Source: Nitrospinota bacterium
GTDB lineage: Bacteria > 2-12-FULL-45-22 > JACOWJ01
Length of the DNA stretch: 15,104 nucleotides
Assembly (NCBI GenBank): GCA_016176845.1
Contig: JACOWJ010000019.1
Span: forward strand, 1-15,104
Direction of reading: 5' to 3'
The notes under the pieces: generated by a model
Told to the model about the DNA's origin: nothing
The model's input: the letters and a program-made list of their open reading frames with translations, nothing else
Databases searched by the model: none
Position numbers and translations under genes: made by a program
In this document: piece by piece, positions 855-6,970 of the stretch
How the letters are laid out: every line of letters starts with the position of its first letter
Numbering within the stretch: the first letter of the stretch is position 1

Positions 855-1697
855 ATGAGAACCGCTGTCATTATTCCAGCCAGGTACGAATCCAGCCGGT
901 TTCCCGGGAAGCCCCTGGCCATCCTGCGAGGTAAGCCGATGATCCACTGGGTTTACGAGAGGGCCCGTCAGGCCCAGGGGGTGGAAGAGGTCATCGTGGC
1001 CACGGATGACCTCCGCATCTTTCGAACGGTGGAGGATTTGGGCGGCCGCGCTCAGATGACCTCGCCTCACCACCGAACCGGCACAGATCGGGTGGCCGAA
1101 ATTGCCCGAGGGTTGACGGCAGAGCTCATCGTCAACTTGCAGGGAGATGAGCCGTTGATCCGGCCGGAGATGATCGAGCTGGCCCTGCGCCCTTGGCGGG
1201 AAGATCCCCGGTTGCCCATGGGGACGCTGAAGGTTCCCCTGGAGAGCCCAGAGGAGATGTTCGATCCCAACGTGGTCAAGGTGGTCACGGATCAGCAAGA
1301 CTTCGCCCTTTACTTCTCCCGTTCGCCCATTCCCTACGATCGAGGGCATTGGATGGCGCCGACCATGAGTGGCCAACAAAACAGCCCTGGCCAACCAGAG
1401 GTGGCTGTCCCCGAGAATGGAAATGGGCTCCAGGAAGAGCCGGGCATTTTCACGGTAAAACTTCCTCGAGCTGCATTCAAACATATCGGCCTTTACGTTT
1501 ATCGCCGAGACTTTTTGCTGGCGTTCGCCCAGTTGCCCTCGACTCCCCTCGAGAGGCTCGAGCAGCTGGAGCAGCTCAGGGCCCTGGAGCACGGCTACCG
1601 GATCAAGGTGGTCACGACCCATTACGCTGGGATCGGGGTAGATACTCCAGAAGATTTGGAGAAGGCCGAACGACTTTTGAGGCGGGAAGATGGCTAA
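855..1697 (+). CDS. kdsB: 3-deoxy-manno-octulosonate cytidylyltransferase (CMP-Kdo synthetase) with in-frame insertion
   Basis: Activates Kdo with CTP to CMP-Kdo in the cytoplasm, the step before Kdo transfer to lipid A. The 280-residue product shows the family N-terminus [18 protein letters not shown] (residues 5-22), NLQGDEPLI (94-102), SRSPIPY (155-161), [12 protein letters not shown] (209-220) and the C-terminal [13 protein letters not shown] and [13 protein letters not shown] motifs. The family is usually about 245-255 residues. The excess lies between [10 protein letters not shown] and FKHIGLY (about residues 165-206) and is encoded largely by a dispersed palindromic repeat that also occurs in cca; the frame is kept. 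Start: ATG 855 with a GAGGA just upstream at unusually short spacing. It overlaps pyrG by 8 nt, so CTP synthase and a CTP user are coupled. Confidence 0.95.
1388..1460 (+). repeat. Dispersed palindromic element, copy 1 (in frame in kdsB)
   Basis: A 73-bp unit from TGGCCAAC to ACGGTAAAA. By hand alignment it is about three-quarters identical to the copy at 5617-5689 and clearly related to the minus-strand copy at 12182-12253. It has two foldable parts: GCC-ACC / GGT-GGC with one bulged A around an AGA loop, then CCG..TGGAAATG pairing with CATTTTCACGG across a 19-nt apical spacer that itself holds GGCTC/GAGCC. It is read as [17 protein letters not shown]. Weaker similarity to copy 2 extends about 10 nt upstream (AAAAC). 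A second TGGCCAAC lies at 1370-1377. Confidence 0.8.
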
Positions 1698-5436: not shown

Positions 5437-6970
5437 AGATGTGAGGGATAAAGGGCCATGGGGAAGGGAGCTGATCGAAAGTTTCTTGCCTTCTGAGGTG
5501 CAGAAAGTATTCCAGATGGTGGCCTCCGTGGCTGGCCAGGCGGGATTTCCGGTTTATACGGTAGGAGGGCTGGTCCGGGACCTTTGGCTGAGGAAAAGGC
5601 ACGAAGAAAACCGACATGGCCAAGCTACATTCGCCGCCCCCGAGAATGAAAATGGGCTCCCGAGGGACTCAGGCATCTTCACGGTAAAAGCCCAAGGCTC
5701 AAAGCTCAAAGCTCAAAGCAGCGATCCGCTACGAGCGCGTCCCGACGTAGACCTGGTGGTCGAGGGGAACGGCCTGTCGGTGGCCCGAGAGCTGGCAGCT
5801 CGCCTGGTTGGAAAGATCAGGATCCACAAGTGGTACGGGACGGCAGTCCTATTGCTGCCGAGCGGCCTGAGAGTGGATGTGGCCACGGCCCGTAGAGAGC
5901 GGTACGAACGACCCGCGGCCCCTCCCCAGATAGAACCGGCCTCCATTCAGGATGACCTCTACCGGCGGGATTTCAGCATCAACGCCCTGGCGATTCGACT
6001 CAACGGGCCGGAGGCTTACCGGCTGGTCGATGATTTTGGAGGTTTGAGGGATCTGGAGGAAGGGTTGATCCGCGTGCTTCACCCCCGAAGCTTTATCGAG
6101 GATCCTTCTCGGATCCTTCGAGCGATCCGGTTCGAGCAGCGGTTCGCTTTTGCGATCGAGGAGTCCACGCTGAAGCTTATGCAAGAGGCGATCGAAGAGG
6201 GGTGGGTGGGCCGCCTCAGCGGGCCGAAGCTATGGCTGGAATTAACCTACCTCTTGAGGGAGAAGGGCAAGGCCCCACTGAAGAACATCCGGCGAATGAG
6301 CGAACTGGGCCTGTTAAAATTTATTCATCCTCACCTGATCCTGACCGATCGGTTAGAAGAGCTCTTAGCCCGAGTTGAAGAGGTCTTGGGCTGGTACCGA
6401 AGCCTTCATGTAAAGAAGGAGGACGGGCGAAGGGCGCCCTCTCCGGAAGAAGATGCGGCATCCTGGTCAACCTCCCAGAAAAGAGAGTCATTGAGGTTAC
6501 AAGACCTGCAGGAGATCCAGCCTTCGCTTCTTTACCTCATGGGCCTGGTCAGTGGGCTAATGGACCCGGAAGTGGAGGAGGTCTTCCAGCGCCTTTCCCT
6601 TCGCCCTGAAGAGGTCCGGAAGCTGAAAGTCGCCCAACGGCACGTGCCCATCGTGGCAGAAGAGCTGGCTTGGGCGAGGGATATCCCCCCTGGAAAGCTA
6701 TATCGCCTTTTGAGCCCCCTTCCCCCGGAAGCCCTTCTGTGGTTAGCAGTCCAGGCCCCAACGGCAAGGATTCGGCCTTTGATCGCCTGTTACCTGACCG
6801 AGCTTCGCGACATGGAACCTTTCCTCCGGGGAAGGGACCTGGTAAAGCTGGGGTTAAGGCCTGGTCCCGTCTTCAAGGAGATTCTAAACCAGACACGGGA
6901 GCTGAGGCTCAATGGCGTCCTGAAGACCAGGGAGGACGAGATCCAATTCGTGAAGGAGCATTATCTTTGA
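5426..6970 (+). CDS. cca: CCA tRNA nucleotidyltransferase / poly(A) polymerase family protein with in-frame insertions
   Basis: A class II nucleotidyltransferase that probably adds or repairs tRNA 3' CCA ends; poly(A) polymerase is the alternative, as the two are hard to separate by eye. Motifs: VYTVGGLVRDLWL (43-55), DVDLVVEG with catalytic Asp107/Asp109, RVDVATARRE (Asp151), YRRDFSINALAI (179-190), DDFGGLRDLEEG, DPSRILRAIRFEQRF. Normally the GG-LVRD and DxD motifs are separated by few residues; here about 46 extra residues (59-104) intervene, encoded by palindromic element copy 2 and a CTCAAAG heptamer array. A second apparent extra segment, around residues 335-372 (from HVKKEDG), is low-complexity and charged. 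The product is 514 residues. Start ATG 5426 lies within queD and has no good ribosome site; GTG 5441 is possible. Its stop overlaps trpS by 1 nt. Confidence 0.88.
   Translation: MKTEDVRDKGPWGRELIESFLPSEVQKVFQMVASVAGQAGFPVYTVGGLVRDLWLRKRHEENRHGQATFAAPENENGLPRDSGIFTVKAQGSKLKAQSSDPLRARPDVDLVVEGNGLSVARELAARLVGKIRIHKWYGTAVLLLPSGLRVDVATARRERYERPAAPPQIEPASIQDDLYRRDFSINALAIRLNGPEAYRLVDDFGGLRDLEEGLIRVLHPRSFIEDPSRILRAIRFEQRFAFAIEESTLKLMQEAIEEGWVGRLSGPKLWLELTYLLREKGKAPLKNIRRMSELGLLKFIHPHLILTDRLEELLARVEEVLGWYRSLHVKKEDGRRAPSPEEDAASWSTSQKRESLRLQDLQEIQPSLLYLMGLVSGLMDPEVEEVFQRLSLRPEEVRKLKVAQRHVPIVAEELAWARDIPPGKLYRLLSPLPPEALLWLAVQAPTARIRPLIACYLTELRDMEPFLRGRDLVKLGLRPGPVFKEILNQTRELRLNGVLKTREDEIQFVKEHYL
5617..5689 (+). 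repeat. Dispersed palindromic element, copy 2 (in frame in cca)
   Basis: A 73-bp unit, TGGCCAAG to ACGGTAAAA, in the same orientation and the same reading frame relative to the host gene as copy 1. It is read as PENENGLPRDSGIFTVK. The first hairpin GGCcAA / TTcGCC keeps five of six pairs around a 6-nt loop; the second pairs CCG..TGAAAATG with CATCTTCACGG, with one A-C mismatch, across a 19-nt spacer. Directly downstream lies a CTCAAAG heptamer array. Confidence 0.8.
5698..5718 (+). repeat. CTCAAAG heptamer array (3 copies, coding)
   Basis: Three perfect CTCAAAG heptamers, preceded by a degenerate one (CCCAAGG, 5691-5697). The 21-bp array is translated within cca as part of QGSKLKAQSS. The same heptamer recurs at the lspA 3' end (11304-11324). 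Twenty-one bases are seven codons, so gain or loss of three heptamers would keep the frame. Confidence 0.75.

Follow-up and report, generated by a model that had tools for sequence, protein, structure and literature searches.

The window analysed here is an entire contig (C24) of 15,104 bp from a genome of 1,531,706 bases in 61 contigs that is 68% complete; all counts below come from this single incomplete MAG. The nearest genome for comparison was one relative from the same order (G001; the host genome itself is G000), and the class-wide search covered these two genomes. The best named match of the CTP synthase was to the Nitrospirae MAG JdFR-81 (65%). Judged by these matches, and with G001 related only at the level of the order, the uncultured host stands isolated and is remote from Rickettsiales. 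Two genes of the window, kdsB and a cca-like gene, each contain an in-frame copy of a short element with two successive hairpins, and a third copy lies between genes:

855 to 1697, + strand: kdsB (CMP-KDO synthetase, 280 aa); the insert lies after ..SRSPIPYDR
1379 to 1460, + strand: element copy 1, 82 nt, with a 75-nt core at 1382-1456 and flanks AAA and AAAA; residues 176-202 of KdsB, in frame
1389 to 1406, + strand: hairpin 1 of copy 1, partly degraded relative to the consensus GGCCAAGC..AGTTGGCC
1419 to 1451, + strand: hairpin 2 of copy 1, arms 1419-1425 and 1445-1451, 19-nt apical spacer
5426 to 6970, + strand: cca-like tRNA nucleotidyltransferase gene (514 aa); the insert lies between ..GGLVRDLWLR and ..PDVDLVVEGNG
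5608 to 5689, + strand: element copy 2, 82 nt, core 5611-5685; residues 62-88 of the cca product, near its N-terminus, in frame
5618 to 5635, + strand: hairpin 1 of copy 2, degraded, with a weak fold
5648 to 5680, + strand: hairpin 2 of copy 2, arms 5648-5654 and 5674-5680, 19-nt apical spacer
12182 to 12262, - strand: element copy 3, 81 nt, core 74 nt; intergenic, between the convergent lgt (end 12168) and an htrA-like gene (stop 12273)

The two coding copies form a direct repeat (1375-1460 and 5604-5689, 86 nt, same orientation) with 74% identity, in agreement with a preliminary description of this DNA that had put them at about three-quarters identical. The unit length of 73 bp given there had to be abandoned, as the revised ends, from AAA to TAAAA, yield 82 nt (81 in copy 3). 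The diverged third copy that it had placed at 12182-12253 does exist, but it is intergenic and inverted and ends at 12262. All three window copies scored 80-91 bits against the family model described below, and all three are among its 43 training rows.

We built a covariance model from 43 copies and, as the preliminary description had proposed, searched the host genome with it. At a threshold of E ≤ 1e-6, the 1.53-Mb genome yielded 91 copies, so the element is by no means confined to the window. A DNA search of the same genome gave 42 matches at E ≤ 10, almost all of them below 1e-7, and a 17-mer pattern allowing up to 2 mismatches gave 63 matches, compared with 0 for the reversed control. The excess over the control, together with the covariance-model matches, indicates a copy number beyond chance. 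The closest pairs of copies were 95-99% identical although they lie at unrelated sites, which is expected for copies that have spread. A search of Rfam with the element in the window returned no match.

The family consensus is AAACCGACATGGCCAAGCAAAGTTGGCCGCCCCCGAGAATGAAAATGGGCTCCAGAAAGACTCGGGCATTTTCACGGTAAAA, and the ends of the element are AAACCG..CGGTAAAA. Of 88 copies, 58 had a core of 75 nt, counted from the C after the left AAA through GGT. Together with a single bordering AAA, such a core adds a net 78 nt, or 26 codons. The flanks of the copies were unrelated apart from the AAA borders, and past the AAA at both ends no clear correlation between left and right flank was detected as a target-site signal. 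The AAA on both sides could belong to the element or stem from a 3-nt target duplication.

Hairpin 1 has the consensus GGCCAA..TTGGCC, and the arms of hairpin 2 have the consensus GAAAATG..CATTTTC. The eighteen named pairs were formed in 86.5% of cells. The preliminary description had assigned a 19-nt apical spacer in hairpin 2 to all three window copies; in the family this is the usual state (69/88) but not an invariant one, since 15/88 copies have 18 nt. It had also proposed that stem changes partly retain pairing: five pairs of hairpin 1 carried both-sided changes (modest covariation), and no pair of hairpin 2 did; hairpin 2 is nearly invariant, so covariation says nothing about its pairing. 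When the fold of the window copies was predicted, copy 2 folded no better than shuffled sequences, so this coding copy in cca has lost its strong structure. Hairpin 1 was degraded in both coding copies. A candidate pseudoknot across hairpin 2 (CCCGAG/CTCGGG) could pair in many copies; its both-sided changes did not exceed those of shuffles, and it was rejected.

Some copies of this family (family A) end in GTAA(C/T)GGTCATGCCCnnTGGGCACCCAAGCGCATGAAAAT..CTATTTTCGTATCAA in place of GTAAAA, the added part being a second two-hairpin unit that we call sibling unit B. The sibling unit sits in the terminal (3') A-tract of family A copies at 8 clear sites in the genome, for example at L232 (positions 1801-2080), L204, L218, L230 and L235 (contigs C38, C19, C28, C36 and C43 of G000), at times in chains of three. 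Where family A copies follow one another in tandem, they have the AAA in common. The apical loop of sibling units contains GGAGAGGGTTGGGGTGAGGG, a further nested repeat (L187, L204, L218, L232, L282 and others). A near-perfect solo palindrome, AAACCGTCATGGCCAGGCAAAGTTGGCCATGACGGTTT, lies at L281 (G000:C56:89285-89330) and is perhaps an ancestral hairpin 1. At L245 and L208 (G000 C51:22448 and C21:23531), inverted copies seem to provide an ATG (CATGTCGGTTT) ahead of the signal-peptide-like stretches MSVRLATLLAALLAG.. and MSVLLCWVLFSL.., and may thus have given the adjoining gene a new start codon. The window also holds another long GC-rich inverted repeat, GGGAGCCGGGGAGC..AGCTCCCCGGCTCC, at 10619-10667 (z -3.6, DNA folding); it lies in frame in ileS between ..FIVSQVG and ..RKCERCWMY of isoleucyl-tRNA synthetase and represents a second kind of coding palindrome. 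At 2926-3090 in pyrG, CTP synthase seems to have an extra stretch unrelated to the element, judged against what we take to be the usual form of this enzyme.

Relatives of the element were scarce elsewhere. The covariance model found one weak relative among 40 other genomes, and G001 contained two related units tagged CGTC or CCTC. The exact arm-pair pattern, which is specific to family A, had 0 matches in 84,980 species and 0 in viral contigs, and plasmids gave no match; the searches of the 40 genomes, the species (by exact pattern), the viral contigs and the plasmids thus revealed no homologue beyond the order. A search of the 68%-complete host genome for a Y1_Tnp/RAYT transposase (PF01797) returned no match. 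G001 carries several Y1 genes, none of which adjoins a related hairpin. On its contig C268 (L276/L286), however, the hairpin AAACCTTCATGGCCTTACGGCCAC lies directly beside a short RAYT-like fragment, ..RYVELNPARAGLTEKPEAYLGVM.., a weak lead towards a link with a tyrosine transposase.

Nine genes contain well-supported in-frame copies, most of which share a single frame. In kdsB, the cca-like gene and a family 4 UDG gene, the protein domain was matched on either side of the insert. When UDG was aligned with its counterpart in G001, a single gap interrupted the alignment; it was 26 residues long and equalled the element peptide; at the level of sequence comparison, this demonstrates a net insertion of 78 nt with the host frame preserved at the AAA. 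KdsB and Cca likewise showed gaps at the insert sites when aligned with the same-order relative. The insert was absent from 16 KdsB orthologues, namely that of the same-order relative and fifteen encoded beside pyrG, a set that spans, for example, Nitrospirae, Nitrospina, Omnitrophica and Zixibacteria genomes. The KdsB of the window retains every residue that is invariant in the orthologue alignment. The chains of KdsB in the PDB bridge query residues 164 to 208 with about six residues, and tRNA nucleotidyltransferase structures omit query residues 56-106, although part of this latter gap is extra sequence after the element. These comparisons agree with the earlier view that the inserts sit where both families normally have only a short loop, and the peptide is missing from KdsB across many phyla, from the solved structures, and from UDG and Cca of the same order, so it is not an ancestral feature of these proteins. 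An AlphaFold2 model of the window KdsB had a mean pLDDT of 86, with values of about 90 or more nearly everywhere and below 50 only at residues 162-200. Since low confidence is confined to this segment, the model predicts a normal enzyme apart from the insert, which would form a disordered loop. Right after copy 2, GCTCAAA repeats at 5690-5725 (AAGGCTCAAAGCTCAAAGCTCAAAGC) add AQGSKLKAQSS to the cca product. The cca gene is not strictly essential in all bacteria.

Further host genes (FtsQ, XseA, deacetylase and others) were identified by Pfam/NCBIfam. In an adenosine-specific kinase, the element splits MEIVNL from KIQKPDELNLILGQ, and solved relatives have no such insert. The ftsQ copy is located between the membrane segment and POTRA, and no start codon occurs from the element to the domain in xseA. 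A deacetylase gene contains two copies in opposite orientation, and in a beta-propeller protein gene the second unit follows the element. An inverted copy lies behind a signal-like segment in the gene for a cytochrome c/periplasmic-binding protein. The N-terminal cases hinge on the chosen start codon, whereas the domain-internal insertions in KdsB, Cca and UDG do not.

In the +0 frame (phase xxA AAC), the consensus reads NRHGQAKLAAPENENGLQ followed by DSGIFTVK. This is its sole open forward frame; the other two run into TGA or TAA, and on the reverse strand two frames are for the most part free of stops. Both coding copies of the window read NxxGQ..APENxNGL..GIFTVK, and the related in-frame peptides noted at the outset are thereby borne out. 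We located copies relative to genes with an ORF-based caller trained on the window genes, which replaced a 150-nt codon model for coding flanks that proved too noisy per copy. Random positions within these loci fell inside called genes in 72.5% of cases, but only 12/89 copies did, indicating that gene-breaking insertions were removed or never made. Among the well-supported in-gene copies, eight were in the +0 frame and two were read in reverse. Under equal tolerance of the three open frames, the probability of at least 8/10 in one named frame would be approximately 0.003 by our own arithmetic, and that of 9/13, with less certain cases included, approximately 0.009. The hydrophilic +0 peptide contrasts with reverse-frame peptides of mixed or more hydrophobic character, a difference that would account for the frame bias. 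Core indels were found in none of the eight well-supported +0 coding copies, compared with 31/80 other copies.

The +0 frame was also open in 46 of 47 non-coding indel-free copies. Counted along a tree built from 57 copies without indels, +0 nonsense changes numbered 3 against 12.3 expected, and the other five frames had no comparable deficit; +0 synonymous changes numbered 134 against 110.7 expected, and non-synonymous changes were slightly reduced (275 against 289). Parsimony is rough on 81 sites, the stems constrain change, and some copies classed as non-coding may be coding. The tree-based count was preferred because the alternative, testing the open frame by shuffling columns, mixes subfamilies and can make false stops. 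We tentatively suggest that the +0 frame may have been kept open along the descent of the family, possibly via coding source copies.

We interpret the element as a non-autonomous, REP-like family of mobile short palindromes that is mostly kept between genes and persists in frame where a copy falls close to a terminus or in a disordered loop; we put the probability of this reading at about 0.8. We infer mobility from the dispersed, nearly identical copies, and with some 90 copies and insert-free orthologues the original suggestion of a mobile palindromic family that can be tolerated as a protein insert gains support. Copies would arise by transposition into A-tracts, and the 3' A-tract of another copy would also serve as a target, so that tandem and mixed chains are built. 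The mobilising enzyme would act in trans and might be a Y1/RAYT-type transposase that is now lost, absent from the assembly, or never dedicated to the element. Selection would purge insertions that put a stop or a frameshift into a needed gene. Hydrophilic +0-frame inserts would be tolerated as disordered 26-residue segments where they fall close to an end of the protein or in a loop at its surface.

Other explanations fit parts of these data. That KdsB and Cca carry similar peptides in the same frame might be ascribed to an ancestral loop motif shared by the proteins, with no DNA insertion; given about 80 more copies outside genes or in other frames, intergenic and inverted ones included, orthologues devoid of the peptide and host proteins that are unrelated to each other, the chance of this is close to nil. 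A selected regulatory RNA or DNA element, such as an attenuator, an mRNA stabiliser or a protein-binding site, whose coding copies are incidental, would account for two conserved hairpins, some compensatory changes in hairpin 1 and the many intergenic copies, with copy 3 of the window placed between convergent genes like many REPs (PMC3733652). Yet hairpin 1 is degraded in the coding copies of the window and copy 2 folds like shuffled sequence, a common gene context was not seen, Rfam holds no match, and the nested chains resemble mobile elements, so we consider this improbable. The peptide itself could be the selected unit, a translated mini-module that spread because its 26 codons were useful or because source copies were coding. 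The shortage of nonsense changes in the +0 frame only, the surplus of synonymous ones and the open frame of non-coding copies speak for it; against it stand the barely lowered non-synonymous count, the roughness of parsimony on so few, stem-constrained sites, and the indels in the other copies, and we judge it quite unlikely. We are also doubtful, if somewhat less so, of a frame-keeping module in a lineage unrelated to Rickettsia, in which the core plus AAA makes up 26 codons, the +0 frame is under selection, and the unit spreads within and between genes.

The mobile palindrome family we favour has its best-known precedent in the Rickettsia palindromic elements (RPEs; Ogata et al. 2000/2002). 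As reviewed in PMC10969869, PMC2229807 and PMC3767692, these are palindromes lying in frame in conserved housekeeping genes, whose proteins tolerate them, approximately 100-150 bp long with one long stem-loop, and form many families; nearly half of the first RPEs were intragenic. The family described here resembles them as a set of 91 dispersed short palindromic repeats, with no known dedicated transposase and with in-frame copies in conserved genes that are absent from the orthologues. It differs in its 82-nt length, two successive hairpins, a host far from Rickettsiales, and an intragenic share of only about a tenth. The likeness drawn here is one in kind. The Rickettsia precedent invoked earlier stands, but the precedents are broader, comprising intragenic CGTC and GTAG REPs (PMC3733652) as well as ERIC and others (PMC2229807).

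CGTC-tagged REPs (Di Nocera et al. 2013, PMC3733652), among them RPE-4, RPE-6 and Neisseria dRS3, lack a dedicated transposase, and in other bacteria too some of them are intragenic. They are single units of 20-40 bp with an unpaired CGTC (or TGTC/CCTC) tag ahead of an 8-9 bp stem starting with complementary AT, a 4-5 nt loop and a CCA tail (PMC3733652). The tag before hairpin 1 of our family was CGAC in 51/88 copies, CGTC in 9/88, and TGTC and CCTC in 1/88 each. The CGTC tag of these nine copies recurs in a relative from G001 and in one solo palindrome, a partial likeness to CGTC REPs. The lack of a linked transposase, intragenic units, and a stem that begins with AT in most copies are shared with them. 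In contrast, the majority tag is CGAC, the 3' partner of AT is mostly GC, the loop has about 6 nt or more, family A has no CCA tail, and a second hairpin is fused downstream to give the 82-nt unit. Because the CGTC tag is in the minority, stem and tail deviate, and a second hairpin is fused, we do not class family A as a CGTC REP; sibling unit B, with its CCCA tail, and the G001 units fit the stem and tail of that class better. GTAG REPs with a RAYT (REPtrons) are likewise dispersed short palindromes with tandem arrays and some intragenic members, but here the GTAG tag is absent and no RAYT was found in the 68%-complete genome. ERIC/RU-1, YPAL, Correia and QMITE are MITEs with ORFs, short and non-autonomous repeats that are able to form in-frame fusions with genes (PMC2229807, PMC5896051); unlike them, our element has a terminal inverted repeat of only ACCG/CGGT, where a classical MITE would have 7 bp or more, no TA duplication, and AAA borders. 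The family is therefore of a known kind, the protein-coding palindromic element, with an architecture similar to CGTC-type REPs and RPEs but itself distinct.

In-frame selfish palindromes were at first regarded as a Rickettsia peculiarity, and sporadic REP cases in other bacteria followed. With net length, border and open frame all defined, the movement of this family and selection on its frame become testable questions. The occurrence of some 90 copies in a lineage remote from Rickettsiales, several conserved genes among their hosts and the insertion in UDG measured at exactly 78 nt, indicates that genes can gain disordered segments from mobile repeats elsewhere too.
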